The notes below the pieces were generated by a model. The model saw only the letters and a list, made by a program, of their open reading frames with translations, ran no database searches and had not been told where the DNA came from. A stretch of DNA of 64,000 bases, taken from positions 1-64,000 of the forward strand of contig NZ_AFPK01000036.1 in assembly GCF_000220525.1 (NCBI RefSeq). The letters are read 5' to 3'. Source of the DNA: Ochrovirga pacifica. GTDB lineage: Bacteria > Bacteroidota > Bacteroidia > Flavobacteriales > Flavobacteriaceae. Each line of letters opens with the position of its first letter. Positions within the stretch are counted from its first letter, which is position 1. Made by a program: the position numbers and the translations under genes. This document shows positions 3,141 through 62,741 of the stretch, in pieces.

Positions 3141-3145
3141 AATGT

Positions 3146-5458
3146 TTAACTTTTTACAATGGTTTCTTCCATGTTGTATAAGGTGTGAATCACTTGCATC
3201 AATGTAGCAACCTTAACAGACTGAGTGTTTTTGCTTAATGGATGTTCTCCTACATTTATAAATTCAGAGGCTTCTTGAGGATGTGCATTAAAATATTCTT
3301 GTTGTTCTTGATAATAGTTTACCAAAAGCTCCTTTTCTTCGGGTTTTATTTTTCTACACAAAATTGTTCTAAAAGCTTTGGCTATTTTTTCGGAAATGGT
3401 TCCTTTTTCCTCTGTCATCTTTTCAGACAACACCCGAGCAGCCTCTAAGATTGTTGGATCGTTTAGATTAATGAGTGCCTGCAAAGGTGTAGAAGTGGAT
3501 AACCTTCTCACTTCACATTGTTCTCTTGAAGTTCCGTCATACACCATTTGTACAGGAGGCATAGAAGTTCTTTTTACAAAAATGTACAAACCTCTTTTGT
3601 ATAATAGTTCTCCTTTGTCTTGTATGTATTCCGTTAAATGTCCACGTCCTGCAGTAGAAGCCTCCCACAAGCCGTCTGGCTGATACACACGTACACTTCT
3701 ACCTCCAATATCCTTATTTAGCAAACCACTAGTTGCCAAAGCATGGTCTCTTACCATTTCGGTTGTAAATCGGTTTCTACTGGCTCTGGCCAGCAAATTA
3801 TTATCTGGATCTACCGATAGATGTTCTTGTGTAATGACAGAGGATTGTTGATAGGTAGCCGACATGACCATTTTTTTAATCAAGTATTTAATGTCCCAAT
3901 CGTGTTCCATAAAATCTGCAGACAACCAGTTAAGTAAAGCAGCGTGACTAGGTAATTCTCCTTGCATTCCAAAATCACCTGAGGTATTTACAATTCCTTT
4001 CCCAAATAATTCTTGCCAAATTCGGTTTACATATACACGACTTGTCAACGGATTGTTCTCATCAAACAACCATTGTGTTAAGCCCAAACGATTGGGTTTG
4101 TATTGCAAAGTATCAAAAGGCATAATGGCTGATGGGGTTGCACTTTCTACCACTTCTCCCTTAGCATCATAGGCACCTCTGTTAAGTATATGAGTTTTTC
4201 TAATATTCGGAATATCTTTCATCACCATCGATTCTACCTTTACATTGGGAGTTTTGTTGATAAACGGTAATGTCTTTGTTACCAAAGAATCGGTGATTAA
4301 AATCTTAGGAGGCTCAGCAAAGAGTTTGGCAGCTGCGTATTCGTTGTTTTCTCTAAAAGGAACTCGGTCAAAAAACGCAAAAGTTTGAAAATACTCTTTT
4401 TGAGAAATAGGATCGTATTTATGATCGTGACACTTGGCACATTCAAAAGTCATCCCTAAAAATGCTTTCCCAAATGTATTGGTACGGTCGGTTACATTTT
4501 CTATACGTGTTTCTTCTCGTATAATTCCGCCCTCTTGATTGATTTTGTGATTTCTATTAAAACCAGATGCCAACAAAGCTTCTACATTGTCTTTGTCTAG
4601 CATATCTCCAGCCAATTGGTAAGTCACAAATTTTTGATAACTGTAATTTTCATTAAAAGCATGTATAACCCAATCTCTCCAAGGCCATTGGGTACGTAAC
4701 TGATCGTCTTGAAACCCGTGTGAATCTGCATAACGAGCAACGTCCATCCAGGTTGCAGCCATTTTCTCGCCATAATGTTTGCTAGCCAACAACTCATCTA
4801 CTATTTTTTCGAATGCATTTTTAGACGTATCTCTTAAAAAACGTTCTTGCATAGCTATGGTTGGAGGCAAACCTGTAATATCAAAAGCAACGCGTTTTAG
4901 CAAGCGTTCTTTGTCTGCCTTTGGATTGGGCATTAAATCATTTTCGGCTAGTTTTTCTGCTATGAAATAATCAATTTCATTCGCTACCCATTCGCTAGTT
5001 TCTAATGTTGGCAAGTCTGGTTTTTCTACCTTTTTAAACGCCCAATGGGTATCATAAGCAGCTCCTTGTTCTATCCATTTTTTGATGATTTTTTTCTCAT
5101 AATCACTCAATTGCAAATTGGATGATTTTGGAGGCATTAATTGTGTGGTGTCTTTCGTTACGATTCTCAAGTACACTTCAGACTCCATAGGTTTTTTGGG
5201 CACAATTCCATGAGCTGATGGATCTTCTTTTAGCGCCTTGTAAGCTCCTTCCTGCGTATCTAAACGCAGTCCTTTGAAACGCTTTTTTACATCGGGACCG
5301 TGACAACTAAAGCATTTATCCGATAAAATTGGACGTACATCAAAATTGTAATCCACTACTTTAGGCACTTTTTTTTCTGCCATTTTATTATAGTCTCCCT
5401 GTTCCTTACACGAAACCAAAAGACATAAAATAGCTATAATGCTTGTAAACTGTTTCAT
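3146..5458 (-). CDS. DUF1549/DUF1553 protein with two haem c motifs (planctomycete-type cytochrome), lipoprotein
   Basis: This protein has 770 residues. A lipoprotein signal ends at Cys17 (LCLLVSC). The planctomycete cytochrome c domain holds CFSCH at about 49-53, with a distal methionine candidate in the LMPPK segment. The DUF1549 domain follows (ITGLPPT), and a second haem motif, CAKCH, lies near residue 339 in the ECAKCHDHKYDPIS hallmark. The C-terminal half is DUF1553 (TSRVYVNRIWQELFGKGIV, then STPLQALINLND). It is therefore probably a periplasmic or surface-anchored dihaem redox protein. It starts 3 bp after the NHL gene and ends 5 bp before the DUF1501 gene, so it is co-transcribed with both. 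The electron donor and physiological substrate cannot be read from the sequence. Confidence 0.93.
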   Translation of the reverse strand: MKQFTSIIAILCLLVSCKEQGDYNKMAEKKVPKVVDYNFDVRPILSDKCFSCHGPDVKKRFKGLRLDTQEGAYKALKEDPSAHGIVPKKPMESEVYLRIVTKDTTQLMPPKSSNLQLSDYEKKIIKKWIEQGAAYDTHWAFKKVEKPDLPTLETSEWVANEIDYFIAEKLAENDLMPNPKADKERLLKRVAFDITGLPPTIAMQERFLRDTSKNAFEKIVDELLASKHYGEKMAATWMDVARYADSHGFQDDQLRTQWPWRDWVIHAFNENYSYQKFVTYQLAGDMLDKDNVEALLASGFNRNHKINQEGGIIREETRIENVTDRTNTFGKAFLGMTFECAKCHDHKYDPISQKEYFQTFAFFDRVPFRENNEYAAAKLFAEPPKILITDSLVTKTLPFINKTPNVKVESMVMKDIPNIRKTHILNRGAYDAKGEVVESATPSAIMPFDTLQYKPNRLGLTQWLFDENNPLTSRVYVNRIWQELFGKGIVNTSGDFGMQGELPSHAALLNWLSADFMEHDWDIKYLIKKMVMSATYQQSSVITQEHLSVDPDNNLLARASRNRFTTEMVRDHALATSGLLNKDIGGRSVRVYQPDGLWEASTAGRGHLTEYIQDKGELLYKRGLYIFVKRTSMPPVQMVYDGTSREQCEVRRLSTSTPLQALINLNDPTILEAARVLSEKMTEEKGTISEKIAKAFRTILCRKIKPEEKELLVNYYQEQQEYFNAHPQEASEFINVGEHPLSKNTQSVKVATLMQVIHTLYNMEETIVKS

Positions 5459-5461
5459 CTC

Positions 5462-6520
5462 TTAAACTCTTTCTAATTTGATTGGATACGATTTGTTGGC
5501 ATTCCACTGACAGACATATATGTTTTTGTCTTCGTCTATACATACATCGTGACAGTGATGAAACAAAGGAGTTTCTTGCAACATCAATTGCAATTCGCCA
5601 TGCTTGTATTTTGGTTTGGTTCCGCCAGGGTTAGAAACCACTTTATTGTTTTTGTCTAAAATGGTTACAAAACCTGAATTGGGCACTCGTTCTAGATATT
5701 TCAATCGAGACCAACAAGCACCCGAATACAAGTTTTCGCCATCAATTACTGGACGGCACACATACGCACCAGGTAAAAAAATGGTTTCTAAATACTGACC
5801 GTCTAGCGTAAAACGCTTAAAAGAATTGTGCACCCTAGAGGTACACAACAAAGTAATATTGTTGGGGTCTCTATCATCAATAGCTACTCCATGTGCATTG
5901 TTTAGTTTTTCGTCTTGATGTCCTTTTCCTCCAAACTTTCGGATAAATTCTCCGTTTTTATCAAACTGCAAAATATAGTCAGAACCATAACCGTCGGCTA
6001 CATAAATATCTCCGTTGGGAGCCACTGCAGTTTCTGTAGGTCTGTAACGTTCTCTTTCTTGGTACAATCCTATTTTTTTGGGGTTGGGTAACTCCATCAA
6101 CACCTTACCATCTATAGTCGTTTTAATAATTCGTTGATTGTTATCGGTAATAAACAAAACATCTTCACCTCCTTCATTAAAAATAGACAAGCCATGTCCA
6201 CTTTTCATTTGGTGTGTCCAAGAAGTCAATAATTTTCCAGACTTGTCATACACTATAATATTGTTTTGCACATGATCGGTTACCATAATCAAACGACCTT
6301 TAGAATCCATTACCATTTCGTGGCAATTTTTTACAGGCGTGGTTTGTGGATTTAGATTTCCCCATTCCTTGTGAACTCGGTATTTAAAATCTCCGTGGCC
6401 AATGCTATTTTTTGATAAATTAGGTTTATTGATAATGGTAAAACCATAAGAAGGTGTTAGGCTCAATCCTGCTCCAACTAAAGCTGAATTTTTTAGAAAT
6501 TCTCTTCGTGTGTTTTTCAT
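5462..6520 (-). CDS. NHL-repeat / six-bladed propeller protein with Tat signal
   Basis: A start at 6520 is preferred, giving 352 residues beginning MKNTRREFLK. It gives a clean twin-arginine signal, and a -7 promoter box at 6546-6553 would put the transcription start just upstream. An in-frame ATG at 6535 would sit almost on the transcription start. Repeated NHL-type blades are visible (MVMDSKGRLIMVTDHVQNN, VAPNGDIYVADGYGSD, GVAIDDRDPNN), together with a DVCIDEDKNIYVCQWN segment. Such propellers are periplasmic and act as binding scaffolds or as lactonase/peptidylglycine-lyase-like enzymes; nothing here decides between these. It is the first gene of the operon downstream of the HTCS regulator. 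Confidence 0.85.
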   Translation of the reverse strand: MKNTRREFLKNSALVGAGLSLTPSYGFTIINKPNLSKNSIGHGDFKYRVHKEWGNLNPQTTPVKNCHEMVMDSKGRLIMVTDHVQNNIIVYDKSGKLLTSWTHQMKSGHGLSIFNEGGEDVLFITDNNQRIIKTTIDGKVLMELPNPKKIGLYQERERYRPTETAVAPNGDIYVADGYGSDYILQFDKNGEFIRKFGGKGHQDEKLNNAHGVAIDDRDPNNITLLCTSRVHNSFKRFTLDGQYLETIFLPGAYVCRPVIDGENLYSGACWSRLKYLERVPNSGFVTILDKNNKVVSNPGGTKPKYKHGELQLMLQETPLFHHCHDVCIDEDKNIYVCQWNANKSYPIKLERV

Positions 6521-6545
6521 GTTTGTAGTCCTCATTGTTGCTCTA

Positions 6546-6553
6546 CAAACTTA
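6546..6553 (-). promoter_or_regulatory. Predicted -7 promoter box of the NHL-DUF1549-DUF1501-cytochrome operon
   Basis: The minus strand reads TAAGTTTG, an exact match to the Bacteroidota -7 consensus TAnnTTTG. It lies about 26 bp upstream of the preferred ATG at 6520. No TTG (-33 element) is seen at the expected 17-23 bp spacing, which is common for activator-dependent promoters. The inverted repeat at 6584-6612 begins 31 bp upstream. Confidence 0.5.
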
Positions 6554-6583
6554 TTGATGATTGTAAAAAAACATGTGGATTAA

Positions 6584-6612
6584 TTGTGTAAACTGGTGCA
6601 TATTTTACACAA
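6584..6612. promoter_or_regulatory. Perfect inverted repeat, candidate operator of the adjacent HTCS regulator
   Basis: TTGTGTAAA, an 11-bp spacer, then TTTACACAA: nine of nine bases pair. It lies in the 153-bp gap between the HTCS gene and the NHL gene, centred about 50 bp upstream of the predicted -7 box. That is the usual place for an AraC-type activator to contact RNA polymerase. It is not followed by a T-run and its long spacer makes a terminator unlikely. Assignment to the HTCS is inferred from position only. Confidence 0.5.
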
Positions 6613-6673
6613 AAACTGAATTTTAATCAACAAAAACAAGGTTTTAACTCGTTTTTAGCAATACACCAAACTA

Positions 6674-9600
6674 TTAGTTATTTTTCTTTAAATAATAAGA
6701 AGGTGCATGACCAAAGTGATTTTTAAACACCCTGCTAAAATATCTACTATCATCAAAGCCAACCGAAAATGCCACATTTTTCACACTAGTGTTTCCTTTT
6801 TTCAGCATCTCCATAGCTGCCGATAATTTGTAAAAATTCATGTATTCAATGATAGATTTCCCCGTTAGAGATTGAAGTTTTCGATACAATTGCGAACGGC
6901 TGATTCCCATTTCTAAACAGAGACTTTCAACTCCAAAAGATGTGTTTTCTAAATGCTTATGCAAGCATTCATTTAAGGATATTAAAAACTGATCTTGCTT
7001 TTGGTCTTGTGATTCTTGTACGGTTGTCTGCTGTTTCTTTTGAATGAGTTCTCTACGGGTTTTGAGTATATTTTTTATTTTAAGTTGTACTTCAGAGATA
7101 TGAAAAGGTTTTTGAATATAATCATGCCCCCCAGAGTGTAATCCTGCCAATTTGTTTTCTACTCCTGTTTTAGCTGTTAAAAATATCACGGGAATGTGCG
7201 AGGTAAGTTCGTTGGCTTTAAGTTGTTGAGTAAGTTGTATCCCATCAACCATTGGCATCATAATATCACTAATAATCAAATCAGGAATATGTACAACTGC
7301 CTTAGTTAAGCCTTCTTTACCATCTTTAGCTGTAATTACCGTATAGGTTTGGTTGAGTTCGTTTTCTAAATAGGCTCTAATATCTTCATTATCTTCAACC
7401 AACAGCAATAGCTCTTTATTGTTGGTTTCTAGTAGCTCATCTGTTATAGCAAGTGATGTGGTTTCTTGATTTTTAGGCTTGTGTAATGGAAGAATTACTG
7501 TAAAATGTGCTCCTTTATTGGGTTCGCTTTGTAAAGCTATGGTTCCTTTGTGCAAAGCCACCAAATCGGCACATAAAGATAAACCGATCCCTGAACTATT
7601 TAACGCTGCAGAATCTTTATCTAACTGAAAATAGCGTTCAAATATTTTTTGCTGATATTCTTTGTCAATCCCTTTACCGTTGTCTATTACCTCTATGATT
7701 AAATTATAGTTTTGAGAAGTTGTTTCTAAAGGCTCAGAACTTGCCTGAAAGCTTACTCGCAACATTACTTTACCATAATCTGGAGTATATTTTACTGCGT
7801 TTGAAATGAGGTTTGAAGTAATTTTTTGAACCACATCTACATCTAAATAAAGTGATGATGTAGGCATTTTTTCGATATCCTTTTGTAATTGAATGTGTTT
7901 TTCTTTGGCCCAATATACATAGGCATCGTAAATATTTTGAAACAGTTCTAAAGACTTGACCTCAGTAATGTTTACCTGTTGCTTATTTTCAAATTTTCTA
8001 AAATCTAAGATTTGATTGATAAGTTCTAACAAACGGATGCTATTTCGGTACATCATTTTAAGCACTTTAGTATTTGGAATAATACCCTTATCCGAAAATT
8101 TATGAAGCGGTGCAGTAATCAATGTCAAAGGCGTACGCAATTCATGAGAAATATTGGTAAAAAAACGTAATTTCATTTGAGAAATTTCATCAAATTGTTT
8201 GAGCCTCTCTTTTTCTAATTCAAATTTAGACTTGGCTTTTTCGCGGTGTATGAACCAACGGAATATACCAAAAATCAAAACAATAAGTGTAATAAATCCA
8301 GCCGTACGCACCCACCATAAATCCCAAAAAGGAGGGGCTACAATAATCATTAAACTTTTTTCTTGATTGTTCCACACCTGATCTTCGTTAGAAGCTTTGA
8401 CTAAAAAAGTATATTTTCCTGGAGGAATATTGGTATAAGTAGCTTTGGAATTAAGTGCATGAGTGTAGGTCCACTTGTCATCATATCCTTCTAATTTGTA
8501 AGCATATTTGCAACGTTTGTTGTTACTAAAATGAATGGCCTGAAAGGCAATTTCAAATTTGCTATCTGTATAGTCTAAGTGCAGAGTTTCTGCAACCTCT
8601 ATGTTTTTTTGAATGTACTTATTGGTTGGGTTAGGCTTGACTAAAAAATTGTTAACCCATAGTTTTGACAAATACACATGAGGTTTTTTGTTACTTGCTT
8701 TTATTTTTTTAGGATCAAAACGCATTAGTCCTTTGTCTGTACCAAAAACCAAACTCCCATCATCCAACAGCAAACTTCCTCCCGTCATTCTATTGGATAA
8801 CAAACCATCTTCTGTATTTAACACCCTTACCTCTTGCGTTTTTTCATTAAACTTTACCAATCCATTGGTGGTTCCTACCCAAAAATTGCCTTCTTGGTCT
8901 TGCTGTATGGCTTGAATAATTTTATCTTTAAGTGCTTCTATCTCAAAAGGCAATACTTGCTCGTTTTCTAAAGAAATTTTAGACAAGCCTGACTGAGTTC
9001 CTACCCATAAATGGGCATTTAAATCTTCATAAATAATATCTACAAAATTGTTGCTAATTGTATGAACATCTCCTATTTTATGTCTAAAATGCTTGAATTT
9101 TTGTGTTTTTGCTTGGTATTTTTTCAATCCATCTCCAGTAGTTCCTAGCCAAATATTCCCTCTACTATCTTCAAAAACATCCACACAGCGATGAAAATAT
9201 CCCACTCCATCTGGATCGTCCCAATTGCACTGAAAATAATGTTGTTGTTTAAACGGAACTGCTTGATACTGTTGCACCCCTAAAATTTCGCCCATCCAAA
9301 GCTGGTTTGTGGTTGTGTGCAAAAAACTTCGGGTATGGTTCGATTTTTTTCGTTCTTGTTTTTCTATAAGGGTACCATTTTCTTGATACCTGTAGAAAAA
9401 CTTGGTATCCACAGCACTTACTCGATCTGATTGAGGTGTATTTGAAATTTGTAGATCTTTGTATGGAGTTTTAAAACGTTTGACTTCTGTATGCTTTTGT
9501 TTGTCAAAAAGGATAACTTCATTAGCACAATTCATCCATATAAAACGTTGGGTTTGCAAAAGGTTATTGGGTTTTTGATTGCTTAAATACCTATCAAACA

Positions 9601-10585
9601 CACGTTCTTTTTTTTGAAATCTAAAAAAAGTCCCTTTGTTAGATAGTACCCACATTTCATCTTTCGTGCTACTTTTAAATACACCGTGTAAAAAATATTC
9701 TTTTTGAAACCAATAGTCTAATGAAATACGCTCTTCTTGATTTGGAAAATCAGAATAAATTGAAACGTATTTCCAATTAACAGCCCAAGTATTTCCTGAA
9801 GTATCATGGTCTATATTTAGCTTAACGAAGCTATGCTGCTGATGGTCTAGAATTTTCCAAGAAGGGGATTTTTTTAATCTAGGGATTTTGTTGATGATAA
9901 AAAAAGAATGATCTGTTTTATTTTTTGCATCAATCCATCGGTGGATTTTACGGGTTTTATAATTTAATAAATTTAGGCCTCTCCAGGTTCCAATTAATAG
10001 TTTTCCAGGCTCTAACTCTTGTAGCTCAAGCACATTGTTGTGACTAAGGCTTTGCGGATTTTGTGGTTGATGTTTAAAGGAATAAAAGCTTTTATTTTTT
10101 CTATCCATCAAATTAAGCCCCCCACCATCAGTACCGATAAAAAACTGACCGTCCGAGGTTTCATAAATTACCTTTATTTCATTAAAACTTAAACTTTTAG
10201 GATTGTCATCGTTGTGAACAAAACGCTCAAAGCAATCGCATTCCCTAATGTATTTTAGTAAGCCCCCCCCATAGGTACCAATCCACAAATCGCCCTTTGT
10301 ATCTTCAAACAAACATGAAATGTGATTGTCTGTAATACTGGTAGGATCTAGTTCATTTTTTAGATAGTTTTTAAAACTTCCACCGTCGTATCGCCAAAGC
10401 CCATTGGTTGTGGCAATCCAAACAAAACCATATTGGTCTTGTAGCAAATCACCAGCATATGTATCTATGGGCAATTGGTATTGGGTAATTTTGTAATTTT
10501 TGGTAAAAACTTGCGAAAATCCATCAGCACAAAACAAAAAAAGACAAACTAAAAAGAGAAGATGTTTTTTCATTTTTATAGACAT
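6674..10585 (-). CDS. Hybrid two-component system regulator (HTCS), intact
   Basis: This 1303-residue protein joins sensor, kinase, receiver and DNA-binding parts in one chain. It has a signal peptide (residues 1-25), two sets of Reg_prop propeller blades (about 45-630; for example DLWIGTYGGG and NIWLGTTGDG), a Y_Y_Y domain (about 690-750) and a membrane helix (about 756-778). The HisKA domain has NISHELRTPL with His814. The ATPase carries an N-box (Asn925/Asn929) and IDNGKG with Asp968. The receiver has acidic ED1065, phospho-acceptor Asp1107 and Lys1159. An AraC-type HTH spans about 1205-1300. All catalytic residues are present. HTCS proteins sense a periplasmic ligand and activate neighbouring catabolic genes, here probably the operon starting at 6520. 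An alternative start at 10573 (MKKHLLF) is equally plausible. Confidence 0.96.
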   Translation of the reverse strand: MSIKMKKHLLFLVCLFLFCADGFSQVFTKNYKITQYQLPIDTYAGDLLQDQYGFVWIATTNGLWRYDGGSFKNYLKNELDPTSITDNHISCLFEDTKGDLWIGTYGGGLLKYIRECDCFERFVHNDDNPKSLSFNEIKVIYETSDGQFFIGTDGGGLNLMDRKNKSFYSFKHQPQNPQSLSHNNVLELQELEPGKLLIGTWRGLNLLNYKTRKIHRWIDAKNKTDHSFFIINKIPRLKKSPSWKILDHQQHSFVKLNIDHDTSGNTWAVNWKYVSIYSDFPNQEERISLDYWFQKEYFLHGVFKSSTKDEMWVLSNKGTFFRFQKKERVFDRYLSNQKPNNLLQTQRFIWMNCANEVILFDKQKHTEVKRFKTPYKDLQISNTPQSDRVSAVDTKFFYRYQENGTLIEKQERKKSNHTRSFLHTTTNQLWMGEILGVQQYQAVPFKQQHYFQCNWDDPDGVGYFHRCVDVFEDSRGNIWLGTTGDGLKKYQAKTQKFKHFRHKIGDVHTISNNFVDIIYEDLNAHLWVGTQSGLSKISLENEQVLPFEIEALKDKIIQAIQQDQEGNFWVGTTNGLVKFNEKTQEVRVLNTEDGLLSNRMTGGSLLLDDGSLVFGTDKGLMRFDPKKIKASNKKPHVYLSKLWVNNFLVKPNPTNKYIQKNIEVAETLHLDYTDSKFEIAFQAIHFSNNKRCKYAYKLEGYDDKWTYTHALNSKATYTNIPPGKYTFLVKASNEDQVWNNQEKSLMIIVAPPFWDLWWVRTAGFITLIVLIFGIFRWFIHREKAKSKFELEKERLKQFDEISQMKLRFFTNISHELRTPLTLITAPLHKFSDKGIIPNTKVLKMMYRNSIRLLELINQILDFRKFENKQQVNITEVKSLELFQNIYDAYVYWAKEKHIQLQKDIEKMPTSSLYLDVDVVQKITSNLISNAVKYTPDYGKVMLRVSFQASSEPLETTSQNYNLIIEVIDNGKGIDKEYQQKIFERYFQLDKDSAALNSSGIGLSLCADLVALHKGTIALQSEPNKGAHFTVILPLHKPKNQETTSLAITDELLETNNKELLLLVEDNEDIRAYLENELNQTYTVITAKDGKEGLTKAVVHIPDLIISDIMMPMVDGIQLTQQLKANELTSHIPVIFLTAKTGVENKLAGLHSGGHDYIQKPFHISEVQLKIKNILKTRRELIQKKQQTTVQESQDQKQDQFLISLNECLHKHLENTSFGVESLCLEMGISRSQLYRKLQSLTGKSIIEYMNFYKLSAAMEMLKKGNTSVKNVAFSVGFDDSRYFSRVFKNHFGHAPSYYLKKNN

Positions 10586-52206: not shown

Positions 52207-54006
52207 TTACTCTAAAACTTCTAAGATTTTATGAAACACTTGGTTGTTTTCATAAACTCCACTAAAGGTACTGGCACGAGGGCCATAAGAAAAAATGGGA
52301 ACCATACTCCCTGTATGGTCATGGGTAACAAAACCTCCTTCTATTTTGTGTTCATCTACATTTCCGCTAGAAACGCTAAATCCAGAGGTTTCGTGGTCTG
52401 CAGTAATAATCACAAGAGTTCCTGGATTATTATCGGCAAACTGAATGACTTTGCTGATGGCTCTATCAAAATCAATTCCTTCTAAAACAATACCTTCTGT
52501 GTTGTTGGCATGACCAAAGCTGTCAATTTGAGCAGCTTCTATCATCAAGAAAAAAGGCTGTTGTTTGTTATTTAAAAACTGTAATGCTCCTTGGGTCACC
52601 TCTGCCAAAACATTCCCTCTGTCCGACAATATAGATGGCACACCTCCTTCTGCTAAAAAAACTCCAACTCGGTCTGCTTTGGTTTTAGGCAATTCATCAA
52701 CCTTAGCTAACAAGGTAAATGTATTGTGAATAGGTAAATCGTAAAATGTTTTGGCACCACCAGCAGCAAAAAAGTCGAGTTTGCTTGCTAATAAATCTTG
52801 AGCAATTTCCTTTTTTTGCGATCTATCTATCTGATGTGCATAAAAAGAAGACGGTGTTGCTCCTGTAATTTCATCTGTAGTAATAACCCCAGTAGCAAAA
52901 CCTTTGTTGTGCAATAATTCTGTAATGTTTTGTAAATCTGCTCCATGAACATCGGTACCAATGGCACGATTGTTCGTTTTTTGACCAGTAGCAAGAGCTG
53001 TTCCTGCTGCTGCAGAATCGGTGGTAAAATCGTCTGCTGACTGGGTTTTTATCAAGCCAATATTTTTTAACTGTGTTAGCGTTAGCTCTCCTTTATTAGC
53101 TAAGGCTGCTGATGAAATTTGAGACAATCCATTTCCATCACCAATTAAAAGAATAATGTTTTTTACCTTTTCTTGTGCGTTGTCGTACGCAAAAGTAGGT
53201 TGATACACTTTTGAGGCAATTTTTGCATGAATGGTTCTGTGCTGCAAACTACGTACATAGGTTGCACAACGGTGAGGCTGATCGGTATTGATAACATCAA
53301 CGCCCAACTCTATAAAAATTCGCCATGCTGTTTTAGAATCTGGTGTTGCCCAAAAACGAAAAGGCTTTCCAAACCTTTTTCCTTTTCTAATTGCTGAGGT
53401 TACTTTGTTATAATCTTGATGAGTTAATCTCCCCTTACCATTCCACTCGGAATAGTCTTTAAAACTAGTACTAACCATAGCTACTTTTTTTAAATCTCTA
53501 GGTGCTAAATCGGCATCCAATTCTTGATAATCAAAAGAAATATATTTGGGATAGGTATGATACGTATTGGATGCTGGTCTGTTCCCCGAAATCACAAAAT
53601 TGATGTGCGGATGAGCTACTATTTGCGGGTATTTTTCTAATTCTTTATGAATGGCTTTTAAAGTCTGGATGGCTTCTGATTTTACATCGATTAGTAAAGT
53701 AAAGTCCTTGTGCAAATCTTCAGCTTTGCTAGAGATTTGATCAAGAGGTTGTAAATACAATTTATCAAAAGTAGCCTCAGAGTGAATTTCAGAAGCTGTA
53801 TGTGCAACCATAAGTTGTCCATGTTGTAAAAAAACATCAGCCTCTATAACATTTAAACCGCTAGTAAAAGCAGTCCAAAAAGGAGTTTTTTGCAAATAAT
53901 CGTTGTGAGATTGTATTCTTATATCTTGATTGTGCTGAGAAAAACATAAGGTGCTAAAAAGCATTAAAACAAAGAGGTAAACTTTATTTTTGAAAACTAA
54001 AAACAT
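52207..54006 (-). CDS. Secreted GDPD-like phosphodiesterase fused to alkaline phosphatase
   Basis: This 599-residue two-domain protein has a signal peptide ending CFSQ. The N-terminal domain (about 25-260) is GDPD/PI-PLC-like: His34-Asn35 in IQSHNDY, Glu55 and Asp57 in IEADVF, His69 in LMVAHT, and the INTDQP ending typical of the family. The C-terminal alkaline phosphatase (about 280-599) has LLIGDGNG (metal Asp290), DSAAAGTALATGQ with nucleophile Ser331, ATPSSFYAH, QIDSFGHANN, ITADHETSGF (537-538) and a final metal His in THDHTGSMVP. One secreted protein could therefore cleave a phosphodiester and then remove the phosphate. It lies 79 bp downstream of susD behind a terminator. Confidence 0.92.
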   Translation of the reverse strand: MFLVFKNKVYLFVLMLFSTLCFSQHNQDIRIQSHNDYLQKTPFWTAFTSGLNVIEADVFLQHGQLMVAHTASEIHSEATFDKLYLQPLDQISSKAEDLHKDFTLLIDVKSEAIQTLKAIHKELEKYPQIVAHPHINFVISGNRPASNTYHTYPKYISFDYQELDADLAPRDLKKVAMVSTSFKDYSEWNGKGRLTHQDYNKVTSAIRKGKRFGKPFRFWATPDSKTAWRIFIELGVDVINTDQPHRCATYVRSLQHRTIHAKIASKVYQPTFAYDNAQEKVKNIILLIGDGNGLSQISSAALANKGELTLTQLKNIGLIKTQSADDFTTDSAAAGTALATGQKTNNRAIGTDVHGADLQNITELLHNKGFATGVITTDEITGATPSSFYAHQIDRSQKKEIAQDLLASKLDFFAAGGAKTFYDLPIHNTFTLLAKVDELPKTKADRVGVFLAEGGVPSILSDRGNVLAEVTQGALQFLNNKQQPFFLMIEAAQIDSFGHANNTEGIVLEGIDFDRAISKVIQFADNNPGTLVIITADHETSGFSVSSGNVDEHKIEGGFVTHDHTGSMVPIFSYGPRASTFSGVYENNQVFHKILEVLE

Positions 54007-54085: not shown

Positions 54086-55675
54086 TCAATTCCAACCTTT
54101 GTTCTGAGGAATTCCTGAAGACTGTATTACCTTACTTGGTATAGGCCATACATTCATATAGGTATCATCAAAATTTCTAGCTGGCCAAACAATTTCTGAA
54201 GTATATGGAGAATCAGGGTTAGATCTATCTGTATAAATTCTACCATAAATTGGTTGTGCATATGTCTGTTTTGCATCTCCCCAACGAACCAAATCAAAGT
54301 GTCTGTTAGCAAATTCTCCCGCCAGTTCTACTCTACGCTCGTGTTTTAAATCGTCCATCGTTGCGTTGGTAATAGACTCCAAACCAGCTCTTTGTCTCAC
54401 TAAATTTAAAGGAGCATCACCGTTTTGTCCTTGCATAATTAATGCTTCTGCTTTCATTAATAACACCTCTGCATAACGCATTAGAGGCACATTGTAAACG
54501 GTAGAGGGATTGTCTCCATTGGAGTTTAAATAAGTTCCTATAGGGTTTTCAAACTGGAATTCGTACATGTATTTGTTGAACTGGAAACCAGACAAAGAGT
54601 TTTCTGAGTAATACCTTCTGTCCTCTCCAAAAAAAGTAAAATCGTCACCAAAACTTAAAATTGTTACTGCTTTACGAGCATCACCAACTTCAAATTCGTT
54701 GTACAAACCTTCAGATGGTGTGTAATAACCCCAACCGTTGTATTTACCCCAGCCTTTGTTTTCTAACATTACACCTGACAAAATACTTCCATTGTTTACA
54801 CCAGAATTTACAGACCAAATGTATTCACTTCCCCAATTGTTTAGATGACTGTGTAATTCTCTAAAATCTTGTGATGGATTTCCTGTGTTTACCAACCCTC
54901 TACCTGAACCGGAGTTGGTTACCAAATCTGCATATTTTACCACCTCAGCATATCTAGAAGCATCGTATGCTGCCCAGTACAAATTGGTTTTTGCTATGTA
55001 AGCCAAAGCAGCATCTTTGTGTGCTCTTCCTTTGTCTTCTGCACTATAGGTTGTAAATAGTGGTAATAAATCTGCAGCTTTTTGCAAATCTTCAACAATC
55101 ATTGCATAGTTTTCTGTAACACTTGCAGGTCTTGTATAACTACCCGAAGGGTCGAACATATTTTCTTCTGTAACAATAGGCACACCACCATTTACATCAT
55201 CTCCATACGTATGTGCTACCCAAAAGTAACTAAAGCCACGCATAAAATAGGCTTCTCCCAAAACTCGATTTTTAAGCTCTTGATCGATGTCCATAGCTGG
55301 GACATTTAAAATTATATCATTAGCTCTTCTGATAATTCTGTAACTTTTTTCGTAACAAGTAGAAGTGTAACTACCCTCGCTACCATCTATATTAAAATCT
55401 TTAATTACATCTGCCGTTGCTTTAATACGTCCTGTAATCATATCATCTGATGCATTTATGTACCAAAAGAAACCTCTACCAAACATTTCTTGATCGTGCA
55501 TCAATCCATATAAACCATTGGCCGCTTGTATAGCATCGGTTTCATTTTTCCAGTAGTTCGCATTAGAAACACTTCCTAATGGTTGCAAGTCTGTAAAATC
55601 ATCGGAACAAGAAATGTTGTTTAACGCTAAACAACTTAGCATGATGACTCCTAATTTTCTATATATATTTTTCAT
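54086..55675 (-). CDS. SusD/RagB family surface lipoprotein
   Basis: This 529-residue protein binds substrate at the cell surface and passes it to SusC. A lipoprotein signal ends at Cys23 (LNNISCSDDFTDLQPLG). RagB/SusD segments are VSNANYWKNETDAIQAANGLYG, RGFSYFWVAHTYGDDVNGGVPIV and YYTPSEGLYNEFEVGD. The C-terminal part has the TPR-like VLLMKAEALIMQG and VRWGDAKQTYAQPIYGRIY. It lies 23 bp after susC. Confidence 0.95.
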   Translation of the reverse strand: MKNIYRKLGVIMLSCLALNNISCSDDFTDLQPLGSVSNANYWKNETDAIQAANGLYGLMHDQEMFGRGFFWYINASDDMITGRIKATADVIKDFNIDGSEGSYTSTCYEKSYRIIRRANDIILNVPAMDIDQELKNRVLGEAYFMRGFSYFWVAHTYGDDVNGGVPIVTEENMFDPSGSYTRPASVTENYAMIVEDLQKAADLLPLFTTYSAEDKGRAHKDAALAYIAKTNLYWAAYDASRYAEVVKYADLVTNSGSGRGLVNTGNPSQDFRELHSHLNNWGSEYIWSVNSGVNNGSILSGVMLENKGWGKYNGWGYYTPSEGLYNEFEVGDARKAVTILSFGDDFTFFGEDRRYYSENSLSGFQFNKYMYEFQFENPIGTYLNSNGDNPSTVYNVPLMRYAEVLLMKAEALIMQGQNGDAPLNLVRQRAGLESITNATMDDLKHERRVELAGEFANRHFDLVRWGDAKQTYAQPIYGRIYTDRSNPDSPYTSEIVWPARNFDDTYMNVWPIPSKVIQSSGIPQNKGWN

Positions 55676-55698: not shown

Positions 55699-58600
55699 TT
55701 ATAAAGACATTAACAATCCTAATGATAGAGTTCTAGCTACAGGATACTTTGCAATGTCCAATCCTTTTCCTCCTACTTCTGGATCCAATCCTGAATAATC
55801 TGTTAGGGTAAATAAGTTTTCGGCTGATACATACAATCTTAAAGACGAACCTGTAGCCAATTTGTCCATCACCGCTTTATTAAACGAATATCCTAGAGTG
55901 ATGTTTTTTACTCTTAAGTAAGATGCATCTTCTAAATACCAGCTAGAAGTTGTTCCAAAGTTTCGGTTGTCGTCTTTGGTTGACAATCTAGGAATATTGG
56001 TGTTGGTATTTTCAGGAGTCCATGCGTTTAATACGCGGTTGTCTAAATTGTATCCAGATAAAGAGGCATTGTAAGTAGTGTATTTGTAACCATTAAACGC
56101 TTTTACATCTGCTACTCCTTGAAAAATCATGCCCAAGTCGAAACCTTTGTAGTCTAAATTTAAACCAAAATTATATGTAAGTTTTGGTTGATATGCTTTG
56201 TAGTATTTTCTATCTGCATCTGAAATTTTACCGTCATTGTTGGTATCTTCAAATTTAAAATCACCTGGTTTTGCGTTGGGCTGAATTAAATTTCCATCTT
56301 TGGTATAAGCATCAATTTCTGCTTGATTTTGGAAAATTCCTACATAAGGTACTAAAAATGGCGTGTATAACTCACCTCCTACTTTAGTTTGGTAAGGTCT
56401 TAACACACTTCTTACATTATCTCCATGGTTATACGTAACTTGGTTGATAGCATTGTATCCGTCTAGGTTTTCTAATTTATTTTTTAACGAAGTTGCATTG
56501 GCGTTTACCTTATATCCCAAAGCTCCTATTTTATTTTGATAGGTAGCTGCAATTTCAAAACCAGTATTTTTAACCTCTCCTCCATTTACACTTGCAGGAC
56601 TAATTCCTTGGTTTAAATCAGACAAACCAGGAATAATCATTCCTTTGGTTGTTTTCTCAAAATAATCAAAGGTTAGATTTAAACTGTGGTTTAAGAACGA
56701 AACATCAAAACCAAGGTCTAAAGACTCAATCGTTTCCCATTTTAAATCTGCATTTCCGTTTCTTCCTACATACCTACCAATATTGTCTGGCTTAGCATCT
56801 TCACCAATTACAACGTTTCCTGCGCTAATAGGAACATCAAAAGCGTAGTATCCTGAAATAGATCTAATATTTCCTATTTCTCCCCAAGATGCTCTAATTT
56901 TAAAGTCATCAATAGCGTTTACATCAAAAAAGTTTTCGTTAGAAATTCTCCATCCAGCAGAAACAGATGGAAAAAAATCTGATTGATTGCTTCCCTTTAA
57001 TCTAGAAGTTGTGTCTTCACGACCACTTGCAGATAGGTAATATTTGTTTGCATAGCTGTACATTACTCTGGCAATGGCAGAAGTTAAACCTTCTTCAAAT
57101 GGACTGTTAGAAGGCTGTCTTACGTCGTTTGCATTTCTTATGTATTGGTTGTACGCTTCTTCCGAAGAAAAATCATATCCTATAATAGAGAAAGAATCTC
57201 CTTTTTCTTTTTGAGCAGAATAGACAACTGTTGCATTTACATCATGATCTCCAAAAGATTTTTTATAGCTTAACTGGTTTTCCCAAATCCACTTGTTTGC
57301 TGTATAAGTGCTTTGAGATAGTGAATTTTGATTGCTAGATCTCCCCAATTCAGGAACTTTAGGAGTAAATTCCTTGCTTTGGTTGTGCTTGTAAGCAAAA
57401 GAATAGTTCGACTTAAAAGAAAGTCCGTCCCAAATATCGTAAGCTAAAAATGCATTTACATTTACATGTGTTCTCGGTGAAGTTTTAGTAGGCCTTAGCA
57501 ACAATGCAAGCGGATTGTAGGTATCACCATATGCACCAGCAAAATCTGACAAATCTTCCGGAACAACACCTGCAAAACTTCCATCTTGGTAACGTGTTGG
57601 CGATGCAGAAGGCATATAAATTGCATTGATAATGGTACCAGAATACGGATTGTCTGTATTGGTTCCGTATGCTTCGTCTCTAGACAAATACAAATTTTCT
57701 CCAACAGTTAATTTTTCGGTAATATTGTACGTAGATTTTAACCTTAGGTTGTAACTTTTAGACTTGGTTCCTTCTAAAACACCTTCTCTGTCTCTGTAAG
57801 CAAAAGAAGTAAAATAGTTAAAGCTTTTTCCAGCTCCACTTAAATCTACGTTGATGTTATTTACTTTAGCATCTCTAAAAATAGCATCTATCCAATTGGT
57901 TCTGTTTACTTGTCCATAAGGATTTAAAGTAGCATCGTGTGCAGATTGTCTTGGTACCCCTGCATTGTCTGCTGCAATATTGTATACATCTGCTTGCTGT
58001 TGTGCAGTTAAAGGTGTTGGCAAATTGGTTGCACTGTTGATTGCTGTGTAATAATTTACACTTAATTTAGGTTTTCCTTCTTTTCCTTTTTTAGTTTCTA
58101 TTACAATTACCCCTGCCGATGCCTGAGCTCCATAAATTGCTGCTGCTGCTGCATCTTTTAGTACAGAAACAGAAGCAATGTCGTTAGGATTGATATCGGG
58201 TCCATTATATGGAAAACCGTCTACAACAATTAAAGGAGATTCTGAGTTAAAAGAACCCACACCTCTAATTTTAATATCAGCACCACTGGTTGGATCACCT
58301 CCTTGGTTAGACACAGTAACCCCAGCAATGTTTCCTTGTAAAAACTCTTTGTATCCAGCAACCGGTCTACTTTGGATGCTTTCTACATTGGATGCAATTC
58401 CGATAGAAGATGTTAAATCTCCTTTTTTTGCCGATCCATAACCAATTAAGACTACTTCATCCAAGTTGCTAGCATCTTCTGCTAAAGAAATTTCTAAAAA
58501 TTGCTCGCCAACAAAGCTAGTTTCTTGATTTTTATAACCTAAAGAAGAAACTTCTATAATTCCTTTACTTGCTTTAGATTCTAGTACAAAATTACCATCA

Positions 58601-58764
58601 AAATCGGTAATGGTAGAATTTGTTTTCCCTTTAAGCACTATATAAGCACCTGGTACTGGCATGTTATCTGCTTTAGAAACTACTTTCCCTTTTACAGTAA
58701 CTTGTGCAAAGGAATGCGAAATACATCCCAAAAGCACTAATAAAAATACATACGTTTTTTTCAT
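55699..58764 (-). CDS. SusC/RagA TonB-dependent outer-membrane receptor
   Basis: This 1021-residue TonB-dependent transporter has a signal peptide (residues 1-20), a carboxypeptidase-like domain (about 22-95, VTVKGKVVSKADNMPVPGAYI), the TonB box DEVVLIGYG, a plug (about 115-225) with INPNDIASVSVLKDAAAAAIYG, and a barrel that ends in a LSLGLLMSL tail. The length is typical of SusC. A -7 box is seen upstream at 58791-58798, without a clear -33, as expected for an activated promoter. It lies between the HTCS gene and susD. Confidence 0.96.
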   Translation of the reverse strand: MKKTYVFLLVLLGCISHSFAQVTVKGKVVSKADNMPVPGAYIVLKGKTNSTITDFDGNFVLESKASKGIIEVSSLGYKNQETSFVGEQFLEISLAEDASNLDEVVLIGYGSAKKGDLTSSIGIASNVESIQSRPVAGYKEFLQGNIAGVTVSNQGGDPTSGADIKIRGVGSFNSESPLIVVDGFPYNGPDINPNDIASVSVLKDAAAAAIYGAQASAGVIVIETKKGKEGKPKLSVNYYTAINSATNLPTPLTAQQQADVYNIAADNAGVPRQSAHDATLNPYGQVNRTNWIDAIFRDAKVNNINVDLSGAGKSFNYFTSFAYRDREGVLEGTKSKSYNLRLKSTYNITEKLTVGENLYLSRDEAYGTNTDNPYSGTIINAIYMPSASPTRYQDGSFAGVVPEDLSDFAGAYGDTYNPLALLLRPTKTSPRTHVNVNAFLAYDIWDGLSFKSNYSFAYKHNQSKEFTPKVPELGRSSNQNSLSQSTYTANKWIWENQLSYKKSFGDHDVNATVVYSAQKEKGDSFSIIGYDFSSEEAYNQYIRNANDVRQPSNSPFEEGLTSAIARVMYSYANKYYLSASGREDTTSRLKGSNQSDFFPSVSAGWRISNENFFDVNAIDDFKIRASWGEIGNIRSISGYYAFDVPISAGNVVIGEDAKPDNIGRYVGRNGNADLKWETIESLDLGFDVSFLNHSLNLTFDYFEKTTKGMIIPGLSDLNQGISPASVNGGEVKNTGFEIAATYQNKIGALGYKVNANATSLKNKLENLDGYNAINQVTYNHGDNVRSVLRPYQTKVGGELYTPFLVPYVGIFQNQAEIDAYTKDGNLIQPNAKPGDFKFEDTNNDGKISDADRKYYKAYQPKLTYNFGLNLDYKGFDLGMIFQGVADVKAFNGYKYTTYNASLSGYNLDNRVLNAWTPENTNTNIPRLSTKDDNRNFGTTSSWYLEDASYLRVKNITLGYSFNKAVMDKLATGSSLRLYVSAENLFTLTDYSGLDPEVGGKGLDIAKYPVARTLSLGLLMSL

Positions 58765-58790: not shown

Positions 58791-58798
58791 CAAATGTA
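58791..58798 (-). promoter_or_regulatory. Predicted -7 box of the susCD operon
   Basis: Minus strand TACATTTG matches TAnnTTTG exactly, 27 bp upstream of the susC ATG. No TTG at the -33 position, which fits activator control. Confidence 0.45.
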
Positions 58799-58934
58799 CC
58801 TGTCTGGTAATGCTTAAGGGGTGGAATATTGTTTTGTAAAAGTGTATTTTGGTTTCAAAATGGGAGGTAAAAAAGAACAAAAAAGGGGTAATTTGGTTAC
58901 ACTAACATTAGGATAACATTGCCATAATCCTATA

Positions 58935-61900
58935 CTAACAAGTTGTTATTGATTTTTTGTATTCTTTGGGACTCATTCCAAAATACTTTTTAAACGACCT
59001 AGCAAAGTATTTAGGATCGTTAAAACCACATTCAAAACTAACCTCAGAAACATTTAACTTTTTATTTTCTAATAAAAATGCTGCTTTTTGAAATCTAAGT
59101 GAAGTAATAACATCCGACGGTGATTGATTTAAAACTTCTTTAAACAATCGGTAGCATTTTACTCTAGAAATTCCCAACAACTCTATCAGCATCTCTACAT
59201 TAAACAAAGGGTTAGAGAGTTCTTTTTTTATAATCTCTAAACTGTTTTTAACCATTTTATCATTCGGGTTCTCTAGTTCTGTACCGTTGGTTAAAATCTG
59301 AAAAATTTCTTTTTGTAATTTGTTCTTAGCTTCTTTTTTCTTGGGTTGTAATAAAGACGAAATTTTCTTAAAAATAAAAGATTCACTTGCAGGTAGCTGA
59401 ATAACAGCATCAATTCCGTACTCTACCGATTGCTCTTGCAGTGTATAGTTAATTTCTTCGGAAATAAACAACTTAGGCAGATGCAAAGTTTTATCTTTTT
59501 TGTGTTCTTGTAAAAAACTAGTGAACTCTTTGGTAAAATAGGCTTGATAAAACACCAACATATGAACCTCTATTTGCTGTAAAGCCGATTTTACATCTTG
59601 TACTGCGGTTTCAAAAAGTAAATTGTATTGGTTGTTTTCTAATAATTGATGTGCTATTTCTAAACTTTCTGCTTCACAAAAAATCAATACAGTTTGCTTA
59701 TTAGAATCTAATTTTTCGTTTAAATTTAGATGTTTCCAAGCAATTACTTCTGTTACTTTTTCTTGAACCATCAACTCCATTGGAATACAAACAGACAACT
59801 GTATGCTGTTTTTAGTTGGTTCTTGCACCGTAAAAGTTCCATTAACATCTTGTAGCAAAACTTTTAATGCCTTGTGATAAGGACTAAATTTAAAAATACT
59901 TTCCCAGCTATTTACCAACACCAAACTAGAAGAGGTTAAGGAAAGTTGAAACTGATTTTCTTGATGTGTAATTTGCAAAGATAGTTTACTTTGCTCGTCT
60001 GCATACTTACAAATATCGTTAAACAAATATTGCATTATTAGCTTAAAACGAATCAAATCGGTTTCTACCCAACCAAAATCTTTATCTACTGTTACCGAAA
60101 ACTGCACGTTGTTTTGATGCAATTTTCCTTTTAATTTTTCGATTATTTTCATCAAAATAGGAGACAAATCTATGGAACTGGTTTTGTATTTCTGCAAGTC
60201 TTTTACATGATCTAGGTAATTCCATTCCGAAATTAAATTGATCAACTTTAACGATTGTTTTTGTAATTTTTTTTGAGCCTCCGACTCTTTAATTTGATGT
60301 GCTACTTTTACAATTTTATTGATTGGATTTTGAAACTCTGACAAGACAAAAGTTTTAAATTTGTCTATTTCAAAGTCTTCATTCTTAAGATTGTTGTGCA
60401 ATTCTAACAGCTTTTCTTTTTGAAAAAAGATTTCTTTGTTTTTATCGTCTAAAGTTTTGTTTATCAGAATTAAATCTTGTTTTTGTTGCTGTATAACTTT
60501 GGTTCTTTGTGCTATTTTTTCTTCTAACTTTTGTTGCTGTAATAATGCATTTTTATTTTTTACGTAAATTAGAATACTAAAAATAATCAGCATCAATAAG
60601 CACATCAATCCATAAAAAAGAGGAGATTCGTAAAAAGCCTGTTCAATTTCAATATTAAAAAACTTTTGACCTTCTTGTATAGAATCGGCATCTTTTACAT
60701 AAAAAGTGTATACCCCTGTGGGAATGTTTTTATATTGAATTTCGGGCTTATTTATGTCTATGGTTTTCCATTTGTTATCGTATCCTTTTAACTGATATAA
60801 AAAGTTTTTATTGGCCAATCTGTTGGTAGGGAAAACAATGGGAGTTACTGAAACATTTAGTTCATTTTCGGAATGCTTTTTATGAATTGTACTAGGATAA
60901 TGTTCTTTATTATTAACCAACACCCTAAGATTGGGATGCACCTCTCTAAATTGAATGTTATTTGGGCTGAAATAATTCAATCCGTTTACACCACCAAAAA
61001 ACATTACTCCCTTTTCGTCTTGATAATAAGAACCTTCGGAAAACTCTGGTGCTTGCCAACCTTCGTTAGGGTCTAAAACATGAATTTTAAATGTATTTTT
61101 ATCAACCGTAGCAATTCCCTTAGTAGTACTTAGCCACATTTGTTGGTTGTTTTCTAACAAACCGTACACCATATGGCTTGGCAATCCATCTTGCTCTGTA
61201 ATGTTTTTTATCAATCCTTTTTGGGGATGATAAATACTCAATCCACCTAAACTAGCAATCCAAATATTTTGGGTGATTTTGTCTTTGTAAACCGAATAAA
61301 TACTGTTTCCTAAAATACCATCGTTAAGGGTAATATTTCTAGATTTTCCTGTTTGTAAATCTAGCAAAATCACTCCATCTAACTCCGTAGCTACCAACAG
61401 TTGTTGTTCGTGTTTTCTTACATTTCTTATATGGTATTTTTCTAGTGATTTTTGTCCTTTAAATGCTTCAAATTTATTGGTTTTTAAATTGAATTTTGCC
61501 ACACCACCCCAACAAGCAATCCACAAAAATTGCTGCTTATCTTCATAAACATAATAATTACGATTGTTGGGTAAATTTGCATCGTCTTTTGCTTGATAAA
61601 TTTGATAAGAATCCTTGTAAATTCTTAGCAACCCAGCATAAGTTCCTACCCAAACACTACCGTCAGAGGAGGTAAACAAGCTTCTTACCCGATCCCAATC
61701 TGGATTTAAAGTTCTTTCGTAAAATTTGTATTGTAAATAGCAATTAGTGTTATAATCAAAATAATACAAACCTTGCGTATAATAACCCAACCAAATTTCT
61801 CCATTAAAATCTTTGGTAACTGCCCTAATTGTTTCGTTAGGCAAATGTGGGTATTTTACTGGATGATGAATAACCGATGAAATGGACTCTGAACCTTGAT

Positions 61901-62657
61901 AAGCCATACTTAATCCACCATCTTTTTGTGCCAACCAAATGTTTCCAAAAACATCTAAATGTAATTTAACAACCTCATTGCTATTAAAACTATAAGGGGC
62001 GTATAAATCTGACACATAATGTTCTATAGCTCCATTATTTAAGTTTTCTAAACTATTGGGTATTCTATAAATTCCATTTTTACGTGTCGCAATCCAAACA
62101 TTACCTTGCGGATCTTTTAGCACATCGTTAATAATTAAATCTGGATATTTTTTTAGAATTCTATCTCTAAACATTGGATAGGTTTCTTGTGAAAGTTGTG
62201 AGTTGTTTTTACGTAGAAATCCATTGTTTATAAACTCATGCCATCCTCCTTCTGTGTAGACCATTGCATTGCCATCCACAGATATTTTTAGACTGCTTAT
62301 CGGTTTTTTAAAATCATAGTTCTCAAACTTGTGATTTCCTACATATCTAGATACTTTTCCTTCGTTGGTTAAAATCCATATATGCTGACAGGCATCTTTT
62401 TTTAAATAAAAAATTTGATTTCCTGCTATAGAAGTTGTGTCGTTAAGTTGATGTTTGTAAGTAGTAATTTTTTGACCATCAAAATAATTTAGTCCATCCC
62501 AAGTAGCAATCCACAAACCACCATCCTTGCCATTCTCTATATCTACAACAGAGTTGTTAGAAAGTCCGTTGTGAGTAGTATAGCTTTTGAATTTTATTTT
62601 TTGACCAAAAACCGTGTGAAAAATTAAAAAAAAAAGAATCCGAATTTCAAACCGCAT
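58935..62657 (-). CDS. HTCS-like regulator with degenerate kinase and receiver domains
   Basis: A start at the ATG at 62657 (MRFEIRILFF) is chosen, since the longer frame needs a TTG start and lacks a clean signal. Residue numbers below count from that longer frame's start, eight residues earlier. It has a signal peptide, Reg_prop propellers (about 45-600; GLWIATWDGLNYFDG, NIWLAQKDGGL), a Y_Y_Y domain (about 625-675), a membrane helix (about 688-707) and a coiled coil. The HisKA box reads LSEFQNPI, so the phospho-His is Ser781. The ATPase lacks recognisable N and G boxes. The receiver has CE for the acidic pair, Tyr1045 for the phospho-Asp and Leu1096 for Lys. The AraC HTH (about 1150-1245) is intact. 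It probably signals without phosphotransfer. Confidence 0.9.
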   Translation of the reverse strand: MRFEIRILFFLIFHTVFGQKIKFKSYTTHNGLSNNSVVDIENGKDGGLWIATWDGLNYFDGQKITTYKHQLNDTTSIAGNQIFYLKKDACQHIWILTNEGKVSRYVGNHKFENYDFKKPISSLKISVDGNAMVYTEGGWHEFINNGFLRKNNSQLSQETYPMFRDRILKKYPDLIINDVLKDPQGNVWIATRKNGIYRIPNSLENLNNGAIEHYVSDLYAPYSFNSNEVVKLHLDVFGNIWLAQKDGGLSMAYQGSESISSVIHHPVKYPHLPNETIRAVTKDFNGEIWLGYYTQGLYYFDYNTNCYLQYKFYERTLNPDWDRVRSLFTSSDGSVWVGTYAGLLRIYKDSYQIYQAKDDANLPNNRNYYVYEDKQQFLWIACWGGVAKFNLKTNKFEAFKGQKSLEKYHIRNVRKHEQQLLVATELDGVILLDLQTGKSRNITLNDGILGNSIYSVYKDKITQNIWIASLGGLSIYHPQKGLIKNITEQDGLPSHMVYGLLENNQQMWLSTTKGIATVDKNTFKIHVLDPNEGWQAPEFSEGSYYQDEKGVMFFGGVNGLNYFSPNNIQFREVHPNLRVLVNNKEHYPSTIHKKHSENELNVSVTPIVFPTNRLANKNFLYQLKGYDNKWKTIDINKPEIQYKNIPTGVYTFYVKDADSIQEGQKFFNIEIEQAFYESPLFYGLMCLLMLIIFSILIYVKNKNALLQQQKLEEKIAQRTKVIQQQKQDLILINKTLDDKNKEIFFQKEKLLELHNNLKNEDFEIDKFKTFVLSEFQNPINKIVKVAHQIKESEAQKKLQKQSLKLINLISEWNYLDHVKDLQKYKTSSIDLSPILMKIIEKLKGKLHQNNVQFSVTVDKDFGWVETDLIRFKLIMQYLFNDICKYADEQSKLSLQITHQENQFQLSLTSSSLVLVNSWESIFKFSPYHKALKVLLQDVNGTFTVQEPTKNSIQLSVCIPMELMVQEKVTEVIAWKHLNLNEKLDSNKQTVLIFCEAESLEIAHQLLENNQYNLLFETAVQDVKSALQQIEVHMLVFYQAYFTKEFTSFLQEHKKDKTLHLPKLFISEEINYTLQEQSVEYGIDAVIQLPASESFIFKKISSLLQPKKKEAKNKLQKEIFQILTNGTELENPNDKMVKNSLEIIKKELSNPLFNVEMLIELLGISRVKCYRLFKEVLNQSPSDVITSLRFQKAAFLLENKKLNVSEVSFECGFNDPKYFARSFKKYFGMSPKEYKKSITTC

Positions 62658-62675: not shown

Positions 62676-62741
62676 CTGCAAGTTTATTTATACGGACTCA
62701 TTTTTTCTAAAGAATGCTATTAAGTTTATGGTACTGTAACT

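Follow-up and report, generated by a model that had tools for sequence, protein, structure and literature searches.

Can a protein with the domain order of a hybrid two-component system (HTCS) regulator be maintained by selection after its phosphotransfer chemistry has been lost, and what would such a protein regulate? The question is raised by a gene at positions 58935..62657 of a 64,000-nucleotide stretch—hereafter the window—from Ochrovirga pacifica, a member of the family Flavobacteriaceae (assembly GCF_000220525.1, contig NZ_AFPK01000036.1, positions 1 to 64,000). The gene, the promoter between it and susC, and the three genes downstream are all on the reverse (-) strand. The initial annotation, made from the sequence alone, had described an HTCS-like regulator without phospho-His and phospho-Asp, and had suggested direct ligand-driven control rather than a decayed gene. 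The gene belongs to a conserved, monophyletic and selected clade of phosphotransfer-dead HTCS descendants tied to an organophosphate locus, and its product is probably a membrane-bound one-component regulator of organophosphate uptake, independent of phosphorylation and descended from a hybrid two-component system.

The kinase-dead HTCS-like regulator comprises 1240 residues counted from the ATG at 62657, the numbering used throughout. Its frame, correctly described earlier as intact, is open from this ATG or from an in-frame TTG at 62681 down to the TAG at 58935; the earlier residue numbers were 8 too high because they had been counted from the upstream TTG, while the coordinates used the ATG. 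The periplasmic sensor, a Reg_prop propeller of about residues 25-590 (60888..62585; Pfam Reg_prop 4e-27, with matches in five stretches; HTCS sensor structure 4a2l, E=4e-52), is followed by a Y_Y_Y domain (residues 618-659; 60681..60806; Pfam 1.6e-7) and a predicted single transmembrane helix at about residues 681-703 (60549..60617), recognized by eye as the hydrophobic stretch LFYGLMCLLMLIIFSILIYVKNK. The cytoplasmic part consists of a two-helix hairpin resembling the DHp domain (residues 765-825; 60183..60365; alignment, AlphaFold2 and Foldseek matches to histidine kinases), a pseudo-ATPase or CA domain (residues 826-965; 59763..60182; alignment, AlphaFold2 and Foldseek), a pseudo-receiver keeping the receiver (REC) fold but not the phosphorylation site (residues 986-1110; 59328..59702; alignment and predicted structure), and an AraC-type DNA-binding domain (DBD; residues 1135-1238; 58944..59255; Pfam HTH_18 6.7e-21). 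The sensor and the DNA-binding domain have accordingly been retained, as had been proposed. None of the Pfam families HisKA, HATPase_c and Response_reg matched the regulator even at E<=1, whereas the HTCS at 6674-10585 of the same window matched every one of these Pfam domains, including the latter three. The neighbours of this reference HTCS (window 1686-10585) are DUF1501, PSCyt1/PSCyt2/DUF1553 and NHL-propeller genes, not susCD.

Concerning the individual residues, the regulator was aligned with the canonical HTCSs of its own genome as well as in the larger set described below. The phospho-His column is occupied by Ser773 (codon 60339..60341; formerly Ser781), the N-box Asn is replaced by Asp881 and the G1 Asp by Ser909, the ATP lid and the G2 box are deleted, the acidic pair ED of the receiver has become Cys994-Glu995, and the receiver Lys is Leu1088 (codon 59394..59396; formerly Leu1096). 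All these changes agree with the initial annotation, and just one assignment has to be corrected: the phospho-Asp column, for which Tyr1045 had been proposed, holds Gln1038 (codon 59544..59546), the invariant Tyr1037 sitting one residue earlier, where normal HTCSs have the Ser, Thr or Cys preceding the Asp.

The key columns were compared between 47 rows of the clade (44 different sequences; the query and 46 relatives) and 58 canonical HTCS rows, the latter chosen via a pattern in the DNA-binding domain and hence not a random HTCS sample. The phospho-His, the N-box Asn, the first acidic residue of the receiver and the receiver Lys are each found in 0/47 clade rows vs 58/58 canonical ones, the G1 Asp in 0/47 vs 55/58, and the phospho-Asp in 4/47—Gln or Asn mostly taking its place—vs 58/58. 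The four rows with Asp in the phosphorylation column (L021, L023, L094 and L104) all lack both the Lys and the first acidic residue. At the column of Ser773 the other members carry Ala, Asn, Thr, Lys or Asp, while the switch Ser/Thr of the receiver is mostly retained. Two positions are invariant in the clade, unlike in canonical HTCSs, namely the Tyr before the Asp column and the Glu after the switch Thr/Ser (47/47 each). Over 17 clade members, Pfam recognized HisKA and HATPase_c in none and Response_reg in four, all weakly. Since the losses are common to the 47 clade rows, and the 58 canonical rows keep the His, Asp and Lys, they cannot be ascribed to chance. With the His, the ATP site, the Asp and the Lys missing, it is strongly implied by the sequences that phosphorylation plays no part in this regulator.

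Full-length copies (E<1e-290) are present in 17 of 400 genomes of the family, covering 14 of 237 genera and including the genome of O. pacifica itself; the genus-level sample consisted of this one genome. Identity to the query is 41-55% among the 16 relatives, whose frames are all open over about 1240-1265 residues. An apparent TGA break in one orthologue (L014) was discarded, as the open frame of 1243 residues begins just after it. A pseudo-module profile run against a second sample yielded six members from a single large genus, in which Flavobacterium is included as judged by identity with named records (L080 equals L095 of F. pectinovorum). A scan of named genomes with the clade alignment added members from Wenyingzhuangia, Cellulophaga, Polaribacter, Zobellia, Maribacter, Tenacibaculum, Pustulibacterium, Confluentibacter, Myroides marinus and several Flavobacterium, and reached two Cytophagales—a metagenome-assembled genome and Pleomorphovibrio marinus; the more distant of these members, 32-37% identical, are phosphotransfer-dead as well. 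Outside the family, the pseudo-module profile matched only ordinary kinases and receivers (1e-10 to 1e-6), and no intermediates between canonical and dead proteins were seen between about 1e-125 and 1e-10 in the order- and class-level samples (at the order level, among the matches listed, to 1e-15). Orthologues with intact motifs, the case that the initial annotation had set against its own reading, were looked for in these searches and not found, all relatives sharing the losses.

In the maximum-likelihood tree of 98 proteins, obtained by a quick method (LG+G4, midpoint root), the kinase-dead clade forms one side of a branch of length 0.96 with a support of 100 in the Shimodaira-Hasegawa-like approximate likelihood ratio test (SH-aLRT). 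Pairwise ratios of nonsynonymous to synonymous substitution rates (dN/dS; Nei-Gojobori), taken only where dS was not saturated, are about 0.03-0.19 in the DHp, CA, REC and HTH regions and 0.08-0.15 in the propeller of intact members, the propeller identity averaging 52% over the clade. Purifying selection therefore acts on the sensor as well as on the dead domains, and selection has preserved an intact regulator in many Flavobacteriaceae from sea and soil.

The locus, too, is conserved. Downstream of the regulator lie a SusC-like TonB-dependent transporter (55699..58764; TIGR04056 1.9e-249), a SusD-like lipoprotein (54086..55675; Pfam SusD_RagB 1.1e-29) and a PhoA1-like alkaline phosphatase PhoA fused to GDPD_2 (52207..54006; PF00245 6.5e-56, PF13653 3.3e-8). 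The order regulator, susC, (susD), phosphatase is found in 17/17 sampled genomes, with susD called in 16 (all but L031), and in 22/22 complete loci from named Flavobacteriaceae. The PhoA-GDPD fusion occurs in 48 of the 400 family genomes, all 17 regulator genomes being among them (P=1.2e-17); in genomes without the regulator the fusion is accompanied by different SusC/D pairs or by no such pair. In Flavobacterium, Polaribacter and one Cellulophaga (L086, L089-L091, L093-L097 and L079-L084) the SusC/SusD pair has been exchanged for one about 31% identical. As the regulator and the phosphatase stay while SusC is exchanged, the regulator is tied to phosphatase function and not to one transporter. 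The same pairing of PhoA with PF13653 is seen in Fjoh_3249, the PhoA1 of the phosphate-starvation-induced PUSII of Flavobacterium johnsoniae (PMC8115612), and from this enzyme architecture the substrate of the locus is probably a phosphodiester. In some genomes (L026, L030, L033, L037, L039 and L040) the phosphatase is followed by further phosphoester genes, which, as read from their sequences, encode calcineurin-like and purple-acid-phosphatase-like enzymes and a protein resembling PI-PLC X, and which hint at phosphodiester substrates.

As to what the dead domains may still do, the cytoplasmic part modelled with AlphaFold2 on the clade alignment (mean predicted local distance difference test, pLDDT, 81) matches histidine kinases, ShkA and DivL among them, in Foldseek. 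The model of the receiver with the AraC domain (34 sequences; pLDDT 87.7) shows a regular five-fold beta-alpha receiver and matches DivK, RR468 and YesN-type AraC domains, although the packing of the domains is uncertain in the models (predicted template modelling score 0.50-0.60). In these predictions the DHp-like hairpin, a lidless CA fold and the receiver fold are all retained despite the lost chemistry. The DNA-binding domain of Bacteroides HTCSs is kept off DNA by its contact with REC, S/CHIP-DK, and breaking this REC-DBD latch in BT4124 allows DNA binding without phosphorylation (PMC11253607). The latch H is kept in 3/47 clade rows vs 53/58 canonical ones, the latch D in 0/47—Asn standing there in 43/47—vs 51/58, and the latch K in 0/47 vs 56/58, the D and K columns having been positioned by residue spacing from PMC11253607. 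This loss fits a regulator freed without need for phosphorylation.

The regulator and susC are separated by about 170 bp. Proximal to the regulator lies a Pho-box-like 11-bp direct repeat, AATGTTA-tcct-AATGTTA (58903..58920), with a further repeat beginning at about 58931; PhoB-type sites typically show a period of 11 bp, and these repeats are hypothesized to represent a Pho box. They are followed by a tandem 21-bp-spaced repeat, TTTTGAAACCAAAATACAC...ACAAAACAATATTCCACCC (58819..58860), a putative operator of the regulator that adjoins the expected -33 region of the susC promoter, whose Bacteroidota-type -7 box, TACATTTG (58791..58798), corresponds to the conserved TAnnTTTG. The pattern [AG]TTA-N7-[AG]TTA occurs in 22 of 23 intergenic sequences vs 1.06 in shuffles. 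Over the first 50 nt the autocorrelation is highest at lag 11 (z=15), over the remainder at lag 21 (z=13.7), both z values being inflated by shared ancestry. Two motifs describe these elements, AATGTTAgc..AATGTTA (motif A) and the tandem TTTGAAaCAaaAgTcCaCC with a half-site correlation of 0.79 at lag 21; within the window, strong matches to both are confined to the regulator-susC promoter. High scores for motif A were also obtained in the region upstream of OprP in 6/6 Flavobacterium genomes (p 0.003-0.037), there on the other strand. The operators of Bacteroides HTCSs have the same architecture as the 21-bp tandem repeat, consisting of direct repeats spaced by about 21 bp (PMC3878776).

The direction of control has to be weighed here. 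A regulator lacking the latch throughout its clade could bind DNA by default and be released by its ligand, acting as a repressor, as proposed for latch-deviating HTCSs with reference to BT2391 (PMC11253607). The position of the putative operator next to the expected -33 region would suit this mode of action. Tandem repeats abutting the -33 region from upstream are, however, also usual for AraC-type activators, and a ligand-relieved repressor is considered unlikely, if worth keeping in view.

A different possibility is raised by two Flavobacterium genomes (L082:12065-13951 and L084:11992-13943) with an identical junction, at which the propeller and the Y_Y_Y domain are missing and the signal peptide region runs directly into the transmembrane helix. 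The cytoplasmic part of this pair shows a dN/dS of 0.106 (14 nonsynonymous and 32 synonymous changes; Fisher 8e-14), which suggests that it functions without the sensor and that a ligand-independent role is possible. Together with the Pho-box-like repeats, this could point to a constitutive DNA-binding protein with a dispensable sensor, PhoB giving the real signal. Such a protein would be hard to reconcile with the strong purifying selection on the propeller of intact members and its 52% mean identity; moreover, a frameshift has since arisen in one deletion line, the other keeping the frame, so that a constitutive protein is regarded as rather improbable.

It might also be supposed that the protein is still phosphorylated in some other way, with a partner HTCS or a small donor acting on the receiver, or that Ser773 itself is modified. 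The Asp in 4/47 rows and the mostly retained switch Ser/Thr could be taken in its favour, yet none of the 47 rows, the Asp-keeping ones included, has the Lys or the first acidic residue, the column of Ser773 is variable, and ATP lid and G2 alike have been deleted, all of which makes this route very improbable. A decaying gene whose frame is open by chance—many canonical residues being gone and two relatives truncated—is scarcely credible against monophyletic common losses shared by orthologues in 14 genera, purifying selection on the dead domains, new invariant residues and a conserved neighbourhood and promoter, and a recent pseudogene is ruled out by the orthologues, dN/dS, tree and shared column losses.

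As far as sequences can tell, a single chain holds both the sensor and the DNA-binding output and has no working phosphotransfer modules, which is the arrangement of a one-component regulator. From the initial annotation it stands that the gene is not decayed and that all phosphate-handling sites are lost; the direct ligand-driven control is what we infer, being favoured by the purifying selection on the propeller. Several observations speak against an organophosphate regulator controlled directly by its ligand. The sensor is deleted in two species while the rest is conserved, which a purely ligand-gated switch would not predict; this lineage weighs against direct ligand control, and the Pho-box-like element suggests a second input. 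Motif A was not clearly found upstream of the best PhoX genes, and the generic Pho-box-like pattern is at chance level genome-wide and cannot define a regulon. Finally, the two Cytophagales members (L105 and L109) stand beside unrelated genes without the phosphatase neighbourhood; the neighbours of L109 look like PSCyt/DUF1501 genes, the Cytophagales regulon being different.

In the favoured one-component mode of action, the propeller would bind a product of organophosphate (phosphodiester) breakdown in the periplasm, and this binding would alter the dimer geometry via the transmembrane helices and the DHp-like hairpin. The pseudo-CA and the pseudo-receiver would then serve as rigid relays determining where the AraC domains sit on the 21-bp repeats beside the susC -33 region, and the upstream Pho-box-like element would contribute a phosphate-starvation input through PhoB. 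Substrate and starvation would jointly switch on uptake, susC being activated together with PhoB. Much more tentatively, the clade may even represent a distinct class of transmembrane regulators, in which an entire phosphorelay has become a mechanical one dedicated to organophosphate scavenging in Flavobacteriaceae; its receiver core would be re-tooled (invariant Tyr and Glu, Lys replaced by Leu), and an emptied CA pocket might read a cytoplasmic signal.

In HTCSs, phosphorylation confounds the question of how a propeller signal passes through the membrane and releases the AraC domain; a natural clade without it, with a defined promoter and a pair of intact and sensor-deleted forms, makes mechanical signalling directly testable. 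The regulator is also a candidate for substrate-level control of SusCD-type organophosphate uptake, the regulation of which beyond phosphate starvation is little known. It should be noted, too, that annotation as a 'hybrid sensor histidine kinase' can be wrong.

Among known systems, the HTCSs of Bacteroidota polysaccharide utilization loci share with the regulator the order propeller, Y_Y_Y, transmembrane helix, DHp, CA, REC and AraC, the adjoining susCD and the 21-bp direct-repeat operator architecture; the regulator differs from them in having no phospho-His, ATP site, phospho-Asp, Lys or REC-DBD latch, and in being linked to phosphatase genes instead of glycoside hydrolases. SusR-like regulators are similar as single chains controlling a sus operon without a phosphorelay, but they contain no pseudo-kinase or pseudo-receiver. 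Their DNA-binding domain is also different from the AraC HTH that follows the HK/REC-derived region here, and their operator spacing is 67-77 bp (PMC3878776). PUSII of F. johnsoniae (Fjoh_3249-3252), comprising PusC, PusD and PhoA and induced by phosphate depletion, resembles the locus in its SusC/SusD pair and its PhoA with PF13653, but has a FecR-like regulator (PMC8115612) where the pseudo-HTCS stands beside SusC; PF16344 had no Pfam match in the SusC of the window. DivL (4q20), ChxR (PMC3960148) and the ChrS pseudokinase (PMC9491836) likewise show that kinase or receiver folds signal after the canonical phosphorylation chemistry has been lost, although these are separate proteins of ordinary two-component systems and not a propeller-to-AraC single chain. 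The single precedent found for an HTCS without the phospho-His is BT4236 of Bacteroides thetaiotaomicron, with Q848 in place of the His and CSIP-EK in that of the latch, for which phosphorylation-independent control has been suggested (PMC11253607); that is, however, one protein, reported only with the His change and the deviating latch, whereas here a whole clade has lost the kinase and the receiver chemistry together.

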